Source: Acinetobacter baumannii (GTDB lineage: Bacteria > Pseudomonadota > Gammaproteobacteria > Pseudomonadales > Moraxellaceae). From it: a DNA stretch of 64,000 bases. Both the position numbers and the translations under genes were made by a program. Shown here in pieces: positions 37,613 to 43,693 of the stretch (the stretch's first letter is position 1; every line of letters starts with the position of its first letter). The stretch lies in NCBI RefSeq assembly GCF_009759685.1, contig NZ_CP046654.1:1426001-1490000 (forward strand), read 5' to 3'. A model generated the notes under the pieces. The model saw nothing but the letters and a program-made list of their open reading frames with translations. It made no database searches and was not told where the DNA came from.

Positions 37613-38230
37613 TTGACAAGTATTCAAGAAGTCATCAATAAAAGAGAAATTAAATCTATTTTTCATTTTACGAGGGTTGAAAATCTTAATAATATTTTAA
37701 CAAACGGAATAATTCCAAGAAATAATTTATCCAATAAAACATCGATATTTAATGATACTGTAAGAGCTGATGGAAAATTAGACTATAGTAGTTTCAGTAT
37801 AAGTTTTCCAAATCATCTAATGTTTTATCGATTGAGATGTGCTGTTCCTGAAAGCAAATGGGCTATTTTAGTTTTCAAATCTGATTTATTAACTACAAAC
37901 AATTGTTTATTTTACCCTGTGAATGCGGCGTCATCTAATGTTAGTAGATCACCAGTAGATATGTTCCGTGGAGGGCAAGCATTGGAAAGAATGTTTACTT
38001 ATTCTGCCGAGAGTCGTGAAAGTGTTCTTAGAGCATGTGATCCTACAGATGTTCAGGCAGAAGTAATGATTCCTGGAATAGTTACTATGGAAAATTTGAA
38101 AGGTTGTATTTTGAGTGAAAAGGATTTAGTAGAATTTTTTTCTAAAAGATTTCCAAACATTAAATTCGTCCACTGTCATTCAGGAAGACAAGTATTTAAT
38201 ACAAGAAAAGCTTTCCTTTGGGGCTATTAG
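37613..38230 (+). CDS. DarT-like DNA ADP-ribosyltransferase toxin (DarT1 type)
   Basis: This 205-residue protein matches the DarT (DUF4433) family in its order of motifs. HFTRVENLNNILTNGI (18-33) contains the NAD-binding His. A variable loop follows with R51 and the FPNHLMFYRLR segment (65-75). The C-terminal DVQAEVMIPG (146-155) places Glu150 at the catalytic position. DarT enzymes add ADP-ribose to bases in single-stranded DNA and arrest replication. The partner gene 9 bases downstream is of NADAR type, and that pairing is the one described for DarT1, which modifies guanine. The start is TTG and its Shine-Dalgarno lies in a hairpin, which suggests low expression. AT-rich composition suggests horizontal origin. 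Confidence 0.8.
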   Translation: MTSIQEVINKREIKSIFHFTRVENLNNILTNGIIPRNNLSNKTSIFNDTVRADGKLDYSSFSISFPNHLMFYRLRCAVPESKWAILVFKSDLLTTNNCLFYPVNAASSNVSRSPVDMFRGGQALERMFTYSAESRESVLRACDPTDVQAEVMIPGIVTMENLKGCILSEKDLVEFFSKRFPNIKFVHCHSGRQVFNTRKAFLWGY

Positions 38231-38239
38231 AGGTGTGAA

Positions 38240-38947
38240 ATGGCAAAACGACCTGTTTTTATTCCTAATTCTAGTGGTTCTACACTTGTTGATACAAAAA
38301 TGATAGATTTTCAATATCATTCAGGTTTTGCAGTTGTTCAAAAGCAAAAATCTATTAATTCGCTACATGACAGTATTCGAGATAAATTAGATATTTTCAA
38401 CATTTTGGAAATATCTAGTAAATCAGAGGTAGAGTTGGGGGTGGCTCTTAGTGCTTTTAATCTAATGATGTTTGATAAAAAAACACATCAAAAATTTAGT
38501 GTTGAATGTGCTTTTCAAAGTAGTAAAGTTTTTCAAAATGGAGGCCCATTTTTGGATCTTTTAAACGTTACTTCAAGAGAAGCGAAAAAGGACGAAAGAT
38601 TAAAAACTTCAGGACAGTTAAAAAAGTTTACTTTTTATGGAATTGATTGGGCTTTAGATCCATTAACAGCATTCTATGATTGGTTATATATTAACGCATT
38701 AAATTTTAATGCTGAGTATCATCAAGAACTCTTAGCATATGAAGCGTTTACTGATATTGAGTTTAATCCTGAAAAATCAATAAATTGTCAGGCTTATTCA
38801 ATTGCAATGTTTGTAGCTTTATCAAAAAGAAATCTGTTAGATAAAGTTAGAAATCCTAAAGAATTTCTTAAGTTTTATAGTGATTTTAAAGTAAATAATG
38901 CTTATTTTGCTATTCAAAACAATTCTCAAGCAGGAAATCTTTTTTAA
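38240..38947 (+). CDS. NADAR-family antitoxin (ADP-ribosyl-guanine hydrolase type)
   Basis: This 235-residue protein has a central SVECAFQSSKVFQNGG (87-102), which resembles the NADAR (DUF1768) core (V-E-x-A-x-Q-x-x-K, Glu89 likely catalytic), followed by SREAKKDERLKTSGQL (112-127) and ALDPLTAFYDWLYINAL (138-154). NADAR proteins paired with DarT1 remove ADP-ribose from guanine and act as antitoxins. It follows the toxin gene with a good ribosome binding site (GAGGTG, 7 bases from ATG), stronger than that of the toxin, as expected for an antitoxin that must be in excess. Function is inferred from motif and pairing. Confidence 0.78.
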   Translation: MAKRPVFIPNSSGSTLVDTKMIDFQYHSGFAVVQKQKSINSLHDSIRDKLDIFNILEISSKSEVELGVALSAFNLMMFDKKTHQKFSVECAFQSSKVFQNGGPFLDLLNVTSREAKKDERLKTSGQLKKFTFYGIDWALDPLTAFYDWLYINALNFNAEYHQELLAYEAFTDIEFNPEKSINCQAYSIAMFVALSKRNLLDKVRNPKEFLKFYSDFKVNNAYFAIQNNSQAGNLF

Positions 38948-39202: not shown

Positions 39203-40141
39203 ATGAGGTTTAGAGATAGAAATTTAAAAGATATTGCAGACTGTATTGTGGGTGACAGGCAATATTTTCCTTATAGAAGTAGTTTTTATATTACACAGTT
39301 TTTTGATGAGTGTGATTTACCTTATGTACATGATGGTAGTACTAGATGGTGGTGGACAGCAGAAAGATTAAAGGAATTATTGGAAGAACCTTGTGCAAAA
39401 GACTCTTTACCTGAGAAATTTATCAATCTGCTTAGGATATTAATGTATAAGTCTGATGCAACAGAAGATGATCCTGAAAGAATAAATGCATTAATTGAAT
39501 TGAATAAACCATTAAGTCGGGAGGGATTCGAAGCTTTTTATGGAAACGATAATATTTTATATGTAAGAAATATAAGAACCAATAATTTGATAAAACCAAG
39601 TGAAAATCCACATAGACCATTCACAGAAGATGAGCTAAAGAAAAGAGAATTACTTATAAACTTTTTAGAGCGATGTTCAGAAGATGAGTTAATTGAAAAA
39701 ATTTTATTACCTTTATTTAGAATATTGGGTTTTCAAAGAATTACGGTAGCTGGACATAGAGACAAAGCTTTAGAATATGGGAAAGATATTTGGATGAAAT
39801 TTACGCTGCCCACCCAACATATAATTTATTTTGGGATACAAGTTAAGAAAGGAAAATTAGATTCTTCTGGAATGACTAAAGCAGGGAATCATAATATTGC
39901 TGAAATTTATAACCAAACTACAATGATGTTAGGACATGAGATTTTTGATCCAGAAACAAATAAAAGAGTTTTAGTTGATCATGCTTATATCATTGCAGGT
40001 GGAGAAATTACTAAAGCAGCAAGAAATTGGTTGGGAAATAAACTTGATGCTAATAAGAGAAGTCAAATAATCTTTATGGACAGAGAAGATATTCTAAATT
40101 TATTTACGGTTAACTTAATCGAAGTTCCGCAATTATCTTAG
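39203..40141 (+). CDS. AbiJ-like N-terminus with nuclease-like C-terminus, putative defence protein
   Basis: This 312-residue protein is not confidently assigned. The N-terminal part (FPYRSSFYITQFFDECDLPY, then HDGSTRWWWTAERLKELL, about 22-60) resembles N-terminal domains found in AbiJ-type abortive-infection proteins. The C-terminal part (about 165-290) fits an Mrr-like PD-(D/E)XK restriction fold. LFRILGFQRITVAGH is followed by GKDIW (Asp195) and FGIQVKKGKL (Gln213, Lys215), the D...QxK pattern of that family. It is AT-rich, monocistronic between two terminators and next to a toxin-antitoxin pair, all consistent with phage defence. The target is unknown. Confidence 0.55.
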   Translation: MRFRDRNLKDIADCIVGDRQYFPYRSSFYITQFFDECDLPYVHDGSTRWWWTAERLKELLEEPCAKDSLPEKFINLLRILMYKSDATEDDPERINALIELNKPLSREGFEAFYGNDNILYVRNIRTNNLIKPSENPHRPFTEDELKKRELLINFLERCSEDELIEKILLPLFRILGFQRITVAGHRDKALEYGKDIWMKFTLPTQHIIYFGIQVKKGKLDSSGMTKAGNHNIAEIYNQTTMMLGHEIFDPETNKRVLVDHAYIIAGGEITKAARNWLGNKLDANKRSQIIFMDREDILNLFTVNLIEVPQLS

Positions 40142-40147
40142 ATCAAT

Positions 40148-40345
40148 AAAAAAAGCCCGACATCCTGTCGGGCTTTTTCGTATTTGGTTGCTAGATATGA
40201 CTCCTGTCGTATCTCACGATCCTGATGCATGAACCTATTATTGTTGTTTTATGTTCCGGAACATCCTGTTCCTGTATGAGTTCATATTAGAAAAAAAGCA
40301 GGGGACGGCCAATCCGCTAAATCCCTAAATCTGTGTAAGATAAAT
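40148..40345 (-). ncRNA. Repeated sRNA-like element, copy 1 (candidate CsrA sponge)
   Basis: This is one of three near-identical copies (others at 41330 and 41999). Read on the minus strand it begins near the conserved GCGGATTGGC block, carries five CAGGA motifs and ends in the terminator hairpin GCCCGACAGGATGTCGGGC plus T7. The motifs lie in or beside hairpins: GGAACA-GGA-TGTTCC, GAC-AGGA-GTC and the terminator itself. CAGGA in loops is the hallmark of CsrB/RsmX-type RNAs that titrate CsrA. In the plus direction the same hairpin terminates the preceding gene. Expression is not shown by sequence. This copy is the most diverged of the three. Confidence 0.6.
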
Positions 40346-40399
40346 CGTACAAATAACATTTTTTGCATTTATGCCATCATCATCGGGCGAAATGGACAA

Positions 40400-40427
40400 T
40401 TGACAATCACTCTAACTGGGTTATATT
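40400..40427 (+). promoter_or_regulatory. Strong sigma-70 promoter for the zinc-ribbon gene
   Basis: TTGACA, 16-base spacer, TATATT. It stands 36 bases upstream of the start codon at 40464. Confidence 0.7.
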
Positions 40428-40463
40428 CCTGTTTAATATATATACGATTATAGGAATGTAATC

Positions 40464-40598
40464 ATGGTAACAGCTGGCGAAAAACCCGGAACAGGCTTCT
40501 ATTTCTGTGCTCAGTGCGGACATAGAGTGTTTTTAGAAATTAATACCGACCCTTTACCACCTTGCACAAAATGCTACTGCACGCAATTTAAACGTTAA
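40464..40598 (+). CDS. Small zinc-ribbon protein
   Basis: This 44-residue protein carries CAQCGH (15-20) and CTKCYC (34-39), spaced to form one zinc ribbon, and the phrase LPPCTKC that recurs in small bacterial zinc-ribbon proteins. Its role is unknown; such proteins are usually cytoplasmic. It has its own promoter and terminator. AGGAATG precedes the ATG at a workable distance. It was recognised directly from sequence because it is very short. Confidence 0.75.
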   Translation: MVTAGEKPGTGFYFCAQCGHRVFLEINTDPLPPCTKCYCTQFKR

Positions 40599-40627
40599 GA
40601 ATGAAATAATATTTGCGTTCGCATTTA

Positions 40628-40662
40628 ACAAAAAGCCCTGTCACCCGATGGGGCTTTTTGTT
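40628..40662 (+). terminator. Terminator after the zinc-ribbon gene
   Basis: AACAAAAAGCCC and GGGCTTTTTGTT arms around an 11-base loop, ending in a T-rich tract. Confidence 0.85.
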
Positions 40663-40720
40663 AATTTAAAAATAAGACTTACATAACAAGACCCGTGATG
40701 GGCATTAAAAGGAAACCGTT

Positions 40721-41296
40721 ATGGAAACAATATTGGGTTTATGTATTGGTGTGGGCCTGAGCGCTGCCTGCGGTTTTCGCGTGTTTGTGCCGCTACTGGT
40801 TATGAGCATTGCCACCATGATGGGATGGTTCGAGCCATCAAAAGGCTTTGAATGGTTAGCTCTGCCATCGGTGTGTTTGGCTTTAGGTGTGGCAACGGTG
40901 TGTGAAGTCGCGGCTTACTATATCCCGTGGGTCGATAATGCTTTAGACACAGTCGCAACCCCTGCGGCCATGATCGCGGGTACGTTAGCGACAATGGCGG
41001 TCAGTAGTGGAGAAATGTCTCAGTTTGCCAGTTGGGCAGCAGCCATTATTGTCGGTGGTGGTACGGCTGGCGTAGTGCAAATGAGTACCGTTGCTGCACG
41101 TGGTGTTTCAACTGCAACCACGGGTGGCTTGGGTAATTTTGTCGTTGCGACAGGGGAGTGGATTGGAGCAATCTTACTTTCAGTTTCAGCTATGCTGGTG
41201 CCTGCGCTTGTTGCAATAGTGGTGCTGATTGCGGTTATTTGGGTGGTGCGTTGGATTCGCCATAAAAAGCAAGAACAGGCACATACCCCGCTATAG
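40721..41296 (+). CDS. DUF4126 family membrane protein
   Basis: This 191-residue very hydrophobic protein starts METILGLCIGVGLSAACGFRVFVPLL, the characteristic DUF4126 opening, and has about five to six transmembrane segments. Internal similarity between the segments around 88-108 and 138-160 is visible (small residues and TG/GG motifs). A short basic cytoplasmic tail (RWIRHKKQEQ) ends the protein. Function is unknown. It has higher GC than the neighbouring defence genes and is followed by repeat copy 2. Confidence 0.85.
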   Translation: METILGLCIGVGLSAACGFRVFVPLLVMSIATMMGWFEPSKGFEWLALPSVCLALGVATVCEVAAYYIPWVDNALDTVATPAAMIAGTLATMAVSSGEMSQFASWAAAIIVGGGTAGVVQMSTVAARGVSTATTGGLGNFVVATGEWIGAILLSVSAMLVPALVAIVVLIAVIWVVRWIRHKKQEQAHTPL

Positions 41297-41665
41297 GTGA
41301 GTGTAAATATCATTTTTAAATGACCATAAAAAAAGCCCGACATCCTGTCGGGCTTTCTTGTATTTGGTGATTAGATATGACTCCTGTCGTATCTCACGCT
41401 CCTGGTGCTTGAACGTATTATTGTTGTTTTATGTTCCGGAACATCCTGTTCCTGTATGACTTCATAATAGGAAAAAAGAGGGATGTCGCCAATCCGCAAA
41501 AACCCTAAAAGTTTGTAGGATAAAACGTACATTAGAAAGTGGCTTGTGGAATCTTAATTATTGTAAATATATATTGAATACCCTGTAAAAAGTAGCAGTA
41601 GATTTTTGATAAAAATATGCTCAATATAAAAATGAATAACTCTAAAATTTAGGGAGAACTATCCT
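41297..41665. other. Gene-free stretch holding repeat copy 2
   Basis: Apart from the repeat element this 369-bp stretch is AT-rich and shows no coding frame. GGGAGA at about 41651-41656 is the ribosome binding site of the next gene. Confidence 0.6.
41330..41526 (-). ncRNA. Repeated sRNA-like element, copy 2 (candidate CsrA sponge)
   Basis: This is a near-identical partner of copies 1 and 3. Five CAGGA motifs are read on the minus strand, including GGAACA-GGA-TGTTCC, GACAGGAGTC and the terminal GCCCGACAGGATGTCGGGC plus T7. It is more similar to copy 3 than to copy 1 across the region 41365-41420. Similarity to the others stops at the GTAC near 41530. Confidence 0.6.
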
Positions 41666-41971
41666 ATGAAGAAGGCCTATAAAAATATAGTTTTAAAGTT
41701 TAAAAAACTTAAAAAGCGTGAATTTAAAGAAATGCCTGACTATCTATTAGTTATTTTCGGTGCTTCAGCCTTTTTGATTTCGAGTTATTGGGGATTCGTT
41801 GTAACCGAAGTGACTCCAGACTTTATTAGAGCTGTGAACAAGCAAGCACATATAGATATATTGGGTATCTCAGTCGGAACTATTTTATTAGCTTTGGCCG
41901 CAGAGGTATGGTTTTTTGGTGCAATAGCTTTTCGCTGTAATAATCTTCTTTATGAAAGATGGTTTAAGTAA
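41666..41971 (+). CDS. Small two-helix membrane protein, hypothetical
   Basis: This 101-residue protein has a strongly basic N-terminal 25 residues (KKAYKNIVLKFKKLKKREFK) and two predicted transmembrane helices (about 28-48 and 71-92). No family was recognised. The upstream GGGAGA supports the start. The gene lies between repeat copies 2 and 3 and looks like accessory cargo; small basic membrane proteins in such places can be toxins or effectors, but nothing here proves it. Confidence 0.6.
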   Translation: MKKAYKNIVLKFKKLKKREFKEMPDYLLVIFGASAFLISSYWGFVVTEVTPDFIRAVNKQAHIDILGISVGTILLALAAEVWFFGAIAFRCNNLLYERWFK

Positions 41972-41998
41972 TTATTTAAGCTAGGATAATAAACATAA

Positions 41999-42194
41999 AA
42001 AAAGCCCGACATCCTGTCGGGCTTTTTCGTATTTGGTGATTAGATATGACTCCTGTCGTATCTCACGCTCCTGGTGCTTGAACGTATTATTGTTGTTTTG
42101 TGTTCCGGAACATCCTGTTCCTGTATGACTTCATATTAGGAAAAAAGCAGAGTATCGCCAATCCGCAAAAACCTTAAAAGTTTGTAGGTTAAAA
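41999..42194 (-). ncRNA. Repeated sRNA-like element, copy 3 (candidate CsrA sponge)
   Basis: This is the third copy, with the same five CAGGA motifs on the minus strand and the same T7-flanked terminator. Upstream on the minus strand a TTGTAC lies 17 bases from a weak -10 (TTTAAG), also seen for copy 1. Copy 2 has ATGTAC at the same place, so the promoter is only tentative. Confidence 0.6.
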
Positions 42195-42205
42195 CGTACA
42201 AGCTA

Positions 42206-43027: not shown

Positions 43028-43693
43028 ATTATTCTCATAATGATTTGTATCTATGCGTAGAATAAAAATATAATCTGTTTAAAAATTAAAATAATTTTTT
43101 AGGTAATAATTAATCCTCCTATGCATACAGGAAAATAAAATTTTAAAATAAAAAATAATTTATAAATTTAAAAAATAGGGCGTAAAAAACCAAATTTTAA
43201 ATCAATAAAATAGTTAAATAAGAGAGAAAATGAGTTTGAAAAATGGCATAGTCAACTCCTTAAAAATGGAGTTCTACCACCAGATTACCGCGAATTAATT
43301 AGGGTGGTAGAACGAAAGGGGGTTGACAGACTGGACTCGTAGAACCAGCACGCGCGGGGCGTCCCCCTCCCGTCCTACCGCAAAGAAAGGGGACGCAAGG
43401 GTCTAACGAATTATAGTAGAACTACAATTCGCTACGAGTTACGGTCTGTCAAAACCGTCTGGCAATGTAGGCCAGCAACGGAATAATAATCGGTGATTTT
43501 AAATACGTCAATTTAATATTTAAAATATTTTTGATTTAATAATAAAACTAAATAGATTTTAAAATAAAAATTTTATTATTAACTTTTTATTTATATTTGA
43601 TGAGAAAAAATAATAAATATAGAAATATTTTGCCAGTTCCAAAAAAGAACTTGATTGTTAAGATCTATTTTTGTCGTTTTTATAGAGATAAGA
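43028..43693. other. Gene-free, very AT-rich region containing a folded GC-rich element
   Basis: This 666-bp stretch before the ketoacyl synthase has no credible gene. Most is over 75% A+T by eye, but 43271-43481 is GC-rich and self-complementary (described separately). Confidence 0.6.
43271..43481. ncRNA. Multi-stem folded element, possible structured RNA or mobile-element end
   Basis: Five nested or consecutive inverted repeats: GTTCTACCACC/GGTGGTAGAAC (43271-43281, 43303-43313); TTGACAGAC/GTCTGTCAA (43323-43331, 43444-43452); ACTCGTAG/CTACGAGT (43335-43342, 43432-43439); GCGTCCCC/GGGGACGC (43359-43366, 43389-43396); CGAATT/AATTCG (43407-43431). A CTGGC/GCCAG hairpin follows at 43459-43475. 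The long outer stem closes a three-way junction. No protein frame crosses it. Strand and function are unknown. Confidence 0.5.

Follow-up and report, generated by a model that had tools for sequence, protein, structure and literature searches.

The window analysed here, 64,000 nucleotides of the Acinetobacter baumannii chromosome (NZ_CP046654.1, positions 1,426,001 to 1,490,000, read on the forward strand), carries on its minus strand three near-identical sequences in tandem. Each of these is, with a probability that we put at about 0.85, an independent gene for a small RNA (sRNA) of the CsrB/RsmX kind, a sponge for CsrA whose CsrA binding and dependence on GacA are predicted from sequence. 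This reading is supported by fixed AGGA loops, by covarying stems, by a near-constant GacA box, and by the presence of both CsrA and a GacA-like regulator.

The repeat copies lie at 40139-40351, 41319-41531 and 41988-42200 (213 nt each); with the middle one as the reference, the first is 85% and the third 94% identical to it. An earlier note on this DNA had rightly picked out the three minus-strand copies, though with a unit of about 195 bp; the repeated unit, promoter and GacA box included, is 213 bp. Read along the minus strand, it consists of a GacA palindrome, a -35-like element, 17 nt, a -10-like element, and then the RNA with five AGGA, hairpins and a terminator. The spans aligned to our covariance model (below) are 138 nt long, at 40144-40281 (166.8 bits), 41324-41461 (160.8 bits) and 41993-42130 (163.1 bits), again on the minus strand, with five AGGA apiece, each directly preceded by C, in agreement with the five CAGGA previously counted. 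The terminator with a CAGGATG loop and a seven-T tail had also been correctly described, and the loop is the same in each copy (stem-loop around 40150-40178 in copy 1 and at 42028-41998 in copy 3, both minus). Five AGGA per 138 nt are found in 0.08% of the pieces of the window (sliding scan of both strands, step 20), and the probability of five or more in 5,000 shuffles of copy 3 is 0.0004. The three copies have fold z-scores of -4.7 to -5.2, and of their several GGA motifs most lie inside hairpin loops. For copies 2 and 3 the minimum-energy folds contain the three looped hairpins drawn in the earlier note, whereas the corresponding fold of copy 1 lacks the first of them, which its centroid structure keeps. 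The transcript is likely to be about 128 nt per copy rather than the approximately 180 nt first suggested.

What the earlier note had overlooked is the palindrome upstream of each copy. The GacA-box consensus is TGTAAG-N6-CTTACA, and its usual place in Pseudomonas is near -66. The palindrome of copy 1 (40334..40351, minus) reads TGTACG-N6-CTTACA; those of copy 2 (41514..41531, minus) and copy 3 (42183..42200, minus) read TGTACG-N6-CCTACA, with one mismatch to the search pattern. Allowing at most that one mismatch, the pattern TGTAMGN6CKTACA has three sites in the 64-kb window, only those of the three copies, where 0.46 would be expected; three sites were reached in 4 of 100 shuffles of the window. 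The centre of the box lies about 66 bp upstream of the predicted start, placed 7 nt past a -10 element that was read by eye. The predicted promoters, all on the minus strand and with 17 nt between the elements, are TTGGCC/TAATAT for copy 1 (40284..40312, by eye), TTGGCG/TATTAT for copy 2 (41464..41492, scoring 9/12 in a scan) and TTGGCG/TAATAT for copy 3 (42133..42161, by eye).

The source genome consists of a 3.98-Mb chromosome and a 9,540-bp plasmid that is 100% identical to pMAC over the 251 bases compared. A genome-wide search, as the earlier note had advised, found seven copies of the sRNA in total, six chromosomal (three tandem, three single) and one on the plasmid. The impression that three copies in 2 kb would be an unusual dosage stands for both dosage and array, the full complement being seven and not three. 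The box scores 10-12/12 in all seven, and its exact pattern occurs in 10 places in the genome, four of them belonging to the sRNA family, vs. none for the reversed pattern; the corresponding figures in A. baylyi are four and one. The genome also encodes CsrA, as had been said of Acinetobacter: the gene is at C1:2636189, and 51 of the first 57 residues of its product are identical to those of the carbon storage regulator in PDB chain 1y00_A, which we take to be the E. coli protein. A GacA-like regulator is encoded at C1:1619342 (266.8 bits). Among 118 Acinetobacter genomes, 117 have a GacA match and 116 a CsrA match.

A covariance model, R1, was built from 32 copies, without upstream sequence, and used to search these 118 genomes at E <= 1e-5. 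Relatives were found in at least 114 of them, with 1-12 per genome and a median of 6 among the matches listed. Among 149 sampled genomes of the bacterial family, R1 matched 38 Acinetobacter genomes, three more being listed without a match, and a single genome of another genus at a borderline E of 6e-5. Scanning genomes with an 18-base RNA pattern gave at least 80 stretches, four of them under non-Acinetobacter genus names; two of the four are chance pattern matches, and two are real copies with a box of 10/12, one on an 8.4-kb contig of Pseudomonas mendocina EF27 (L231) and one on a 5.6-kb contig of a metagenome-assembled genome (L239), attributable to plasmid transfer or to contamination. At the search sensitivity used, hardly any members of the family fall outside the genus Acinetobacter. 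An origin in phages was considered and rejected, with only 7 of 50,697 phage records matching: six are contigs of 46-128 kb under one name (MD-2021a), probably chromosomal, and the seventh, AB2I3 (partial), has genes for replication and for a sulfate permease and resembles a plasmid fragment.

Sixty hits outside the model, picked from the listed hits and not at random, were held out for comparison; some share genomes with model rows, and one (L106) hardly differs from one of the model rows. Masking of one hit (L150) leaves 59 that are readable, and in 57 of these a search between -85 and -55 places a box scoring at least 9/12 at -68 to -71 relative to the start of the model. Mononucleotide shuffles, scanned across an equal number of positions, gave such a score in 1.75% of cases. 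Because R1 has no upstream sequence, the box is an independent feature of the family. Over the 150 nt that begin at the model start, AGGA occurs four times in 37 of the 60 hits, five times in 15 and six times in 1, with 1-3 in the remaining seven, among them the masked L150.

Fitted to the model structure, the held-out alignment has 60 rows from 59 loci, L125 providing two. In it 96.4% of cells pair, and 23 of the 26 pairs show changes on both sides (194 cells), a figure reached by 0 of 500 shuffles and compared with 5-11 pairs when partners are slid; for the 32 model rows the values are 97.7% of cells and double changes in 11 of 26 pairs (41 cells). Each column of the four AGGA stretches is 90-100% constant, and many stem columns fall as low as 0.6-0.85. 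By a simple pattern count over the 60 rows, a GGA loop is present in 59 for hairpin 1, in 55 for hairpin 3 (an undercount) and in 56 for the terminator. Conservation restricted to the terminator part, which the earlier note had named as telling against its proposal, is therefore not what is found, with loops, linker and GacA box conserved too. The same observation bears on the idea that the copies are a dispersed repeat acting chiefly as a bidirectional terminator for adjoining convergent genes. Plus-strand stems do begin approximately 9, 28 and 36 bp past the open reading frames (ORFs) 39203-40141, 41666-41971 and 40721-41296, as this would have it; nevertheless the conserved elements extend far from the terminator, the stems covary, and a terminator has no need of GGA in its loop, so that we consider this the least probable of the explanations discussed here.

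The RNA also has a linker of the form N-AA-N-AA-N-AA-N-AA-N, in which the A columns are 83-100% constant and the N columns are free. ARN is the binding pattern of the distal face of Hfq, and the (AAN)4 linker resembles it, which leads us to predict Hfq binding. A family of Hfq-dependent base-pairing sRNAs could share this linker; its AGGA loops or stems would pair with mRNAs, and CsrA would be no partner. Outside the linker and the terminator stem, however, it is the loop AGGA, a CsrA site, that is most fixed, the stems covary, and AGGA resembles the Shine-Dalgarno sequence, not its complement. Base pairing as the main function is accordingly unlikely, if somewhat less so than the terminator.

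Copies are also widespread on plasmids. Of 425 PLSDB records matching copy 3, 404 are from Acinetobacter, 17 from Klebsiella, 3 from Raoultella and 1 from Enterobacter; the three best matches are chromosome-sized records filed as plasmids. Fourteen distinct plasmids were chosen from the match lists, not at random (pMAC corresponds to both L058 and L071), and scored against the pdif consensus. A pdif-like Xer site lies 247-268 bp upstream of the box in 12 of the 14: ten have 20-22 of 22 letters, L067 has a five-base spacer, and the site of L074 was found separately; L062 is without a pdif-like site, and L069 is cut at the start of its record. Between pdif and box the sequence shows partial conservation. 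Such a site (at least 19/22) also stands at 239-269 bp in 11 of the 60 held-out hits, at 254-266 bp in L019 (on a 3.3-Mb contig), L020, L022 and L037, and at 164 bp in L028; from these last five it follows that the pdif link is not confined to plasmids. The scoring left out L005, L007, L023, L044, L045 and L074 among others, and for the four chromosomal copies of the source genome that were scored the best value was 14/22.

The number of AGGA on the 14 plasmids ranges from 0 to 4, with four in four plasmids, and some plasmid copies look like intact sponges. Copies of the pMAC type retain the box and the linker, but two of their loops read ATGA instead of AGGA, and CsrA binding by them cannot be taken for granted. 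Three such copies (L058, L072 and L073), with a box of 11/12 and only 0-1 AGGA, are what would be expected if plasmid copies, and perhaps some chromosomal ones, were DNA decoys titrating GacA and not RNA genes; against this, 53 of the 60 held-out copies have four or more AGGA and the stems covary, whereas a DNA decoy needs no RNA structure. We regard decoys as very improbable, only slightly less so than the terminator explanation. Tentatively, and at somewhat less than even odds, the plasmid copies can be seen as a mobile form of the CsrA sponge: GacA-driven genes that would form a recurrent leader of plasmid Xer (pdif) modules some 265 bp from the recombination site, would shift the host's translational control on its own GacS/GacA signal, and would spread by site-specific recombination with changing cargo, the pMAC type being a repurposed branch.

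Three further observations concern these modules. With pdif, spacer and sRNA together as the query, 1,026 plasmid records match, many of the listed matches covering the pdif-spacer part only. That part (L063:2225-2500) has a terminator-like hairpin of its own and may serve Xer recombination as an accessory element. In A. pittii NZ_CP018910 (L074), the copy lies between an OXA-72 carbapenemase gene and a RelE/helix-turn-helix pair shared with pMAC.

Several points weigh against the array being a set of GacA-controlled CsrA sponges. Boxes are poor in two of the held-out hits (L118, 7/12; L143, 8/12) and in one member of the model set (L023, 7/12), and the pMAC-type copies have lost most of their AGGA and yet keep the box. 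Four genomes without an R1 match (G026, G032, G050 and G077) have both GacA and CsrA, which makes a test by co-absence uninformative. The -35 and -10 calls are weak: the scan lists the promoter of copy 2 only, those of copies 1 and 3 being absent from it, and it gives 8 sites where 6.0 are expected. The GacA match, at 266.8 bits, is under the curated cut-off of 280 for NF007018. In the part of PMC2375449 covered, the sequence upstream of rsmX, rsmY and rsmZ is described only as a palindrome and a potential site for GacA, with neither the consensus nor the -66 position stated. A further point is that AB5075, in the part of its published sRNA catalogue covered (PMC5320573), lists one Group 3 sRNA near the position of the array and not three. 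Lastly, the Rfam scan proposed in the earlier note gave no match at gathering score to the Csr/Rsm families (CsrB, CsrC, RsmX, RsmY, PrrB/RsmZ) in the three copies, eight relatives, or the flanks of the other copies of this genome and of pMAC.

A relaxed Rfam search yielded 55 matches up to E 5, all under gathering score. Four of the sub-threshold alignments were examined and found to rest mainly on the terminator or to lie on the other strand, and all 55 were set aside; the RsmY match, for example, is on the other strand with 21.7 bits vs. 57. The sRNA is no member of an existing Rfam family.

A relative has nonetheless been met before as a transcript. The multi-copy sRNA groups that the earlier note mentioned from A. 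baumannii transcriptomes include, in AB5075, a Group 3 of four homologous sRNAs, ABUWs005, 061, 081 and 083, 128-147 nt long and assigned no function (Weiss et al. 2016, PMC5320573). ABUWs061 was detected by RNA-seq and is listed there at 15,927 bases from the transfer-messenger RNA (tmRNA) gene and 51,481 from rnpB; our copy L005 is 15,977 bases from the tmRNA gene and 51,501 from rnpB, with the same order and strand relation, and on these landmark distances ABUWs061 is its counterpart. Given the authors' own homology grouping, ABUWs005, 081 and 083 belong to the family too; for ABUWs081 and 083 the agreement is in rough spacing and strand only (97.8 kb vs. 104-106 kb). Neither CsrA nor Rsm turned up when the text of that paper was searched for them, and the parts examined give no GacA box or function for Group 3. 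The four Group 3 names occur in no other paper of the open-licence literature searched, and in the part of it covered we found none linking Group 3 or the array to CsrA.

The closest known systems include RsmX, RsmY and RsmZ of Pseudomonas, RNAs of about 110-130 nt with GGA hairpin loops, a GacA palindrome near -66 and an intrinsic terminator. The Acinetobacter family differs in having no Rfam match at gathering score, a median of 6 copies, a tandem array, the (AAN)4 linker and plasmid copies beside pdif. Duplication of rsmX has been reported (PMC7911923). With E. coli CsrB and CsrC the family shares loops of the CAGGAUG type and the logic of a CsrA sponge, and the host CsrA shares 51 of 57 residues with 1y00_A; the Acinetobacter RNA is shorter, with 4-5 sites vs. 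about 18 in CsrB/CsrC, and again is without a match in Rfam. Within the genus, two loci for RsmA-regulating sRNAs, at 25035-24917 and 2690560-2690698 (the latter 139 nt), were predicted in Acinetobacter ADP1 by Fakhry 2017 (PMC5568370), citing earlier ADP1 predictions by Kulkarni 2006; they have the same proposed function as the array family and may or may not belong to it. RsmQ of a Pseudomonas plasmid likewise represents crosstalk of a plasmid with the Gac-Rsm pathway, but it is a CsrA-like protein whereas the Acinetobacter plasmid gene encodes an RNA (PMC9928087). The CsrA-sponge kind is thus already known and was predicted earlier in A. baylyi; new, as far as the literature covered shows, are a single genus-wide, high-dosage family with Gac boxes, the conservation of its array, a linker resembling an Hfq site, and a branch linked to pdif.

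In the source genome the triple array lies downstream of acnD (TIGR02333). Between copies 1 and 2 are, on the plus strand, a 44-aa zinc-ribbon ORF (DUF1451, 40464..40598) and a DUF4126 ORF (40721..41296) convergent with sRNA copy 2, and between copies 2 and 3 there is a 101-aa ORF (41666..41971, plus). A. baumannii NZ_CP104448 has the array likewise downstream of acnD (the same protein in its ORF list), with a different ORF, of 169 aa, between copies 2 and 3. A. baylyi DSM 14961 has seven strong copies; three form a tandem array next to where acnD ends, and the ORFs that separate them are different ones. The array copies hold their position while the cargo between them changes. Adjoining the array in the window (37613-38947, plus) are a DarT-like gene and then a NADAR-DarT1 antitoxin gene (Pfam PF14487, PF22397); NZ_CP104448 has no such ORFs at the corresponding place. 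A C4 antisense RNA (Rfam RF01695, 57.2 bits) is found at 43300-43385 on the minus strand. Weiss et al. (PMC5320573) relate their Group 1 to this RNA; the match falls outside the copies, and an identity of the copies with C4 was rejected.

Exact GacA boxes occur elsewhere in the source genome as well. They include one at C1:1029, near the chromosome start, and two at C1:3394119 and C1:3223112, of which one adjoins an acetyl-CoA acetyltransferase-like gene and the other falls within a SurA-like gene. Locus L171 (C1:1822665) is a putative sRNA with no Rfam match at E 0.5; it has an exact box, its terminator loop is GCAGGACGC, and it contains eight GGA (shuffle P 0.0055). Directly after recD (TIGR01447), at C1:1747170 and C1:1747617 (L169 and L170), are two tandem putative sRNAs with exact boxes, and A. 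baylyi has the same recD-adjacent arrangement (L305). Evolved A. baylyi was found to be mutated in an unknown predicted sRNA between recD and ACIAD0400, and also in csrA, rnd and hfq (Gifford 2024, PMC11426457). The recD-linked RNAs have the box with GGA not enriched (P 0.69 and 0.22) and are therefore not claimed as CsrA sponges; no Rfam match was found nearby at E 0.5.

For the array itself, promoter, start, GacA activation, binding of CsrA and Hfq, and sequestration are all deduced from sequence, and the following scheme would connect them. GacA would bind the palindrome centred near -66 and activate a sigma-70 promoter. The resulting RNA of about 128 nt would display four to five AGGA, mostly in hairpin loops (ACAGGAUGU in hairpin 1 and the terminator), and these loops would bind CsrA, removing it from the mRNAs that it targets, with the single-stranded (AAN)4 linker probably recruiting Hfq. 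Three tandem genes together with three single chromosomal relatives would give a higher and better buffered dose of a single sponge, all under one switch. In A. baylyi a phenotype of gacA loss requires csrA, and the 2025 paper reporting this presumes CsrA-binding noncoding RNAs, naming none in the part covered (PMC12455638). In A. baumannii, carbon use, plasmid transfer and virulence have been connected with GacS/GacA (PMC10746170); in A. baylyi, CsrA has been connected with both competence and the use of carbon sources (PMC12442408).

The family would supply loci for the link between GacA and CsrA that can be tested by deletion in A. baylyi, which has the same tandem array, and it offers a proposed function for an RNA-seq group, Group 3, that previously had none. 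For some effects of GacA it would provide an alternative to direct control of promoters, and through it plasmids may be able to dose the Csr system of their host.

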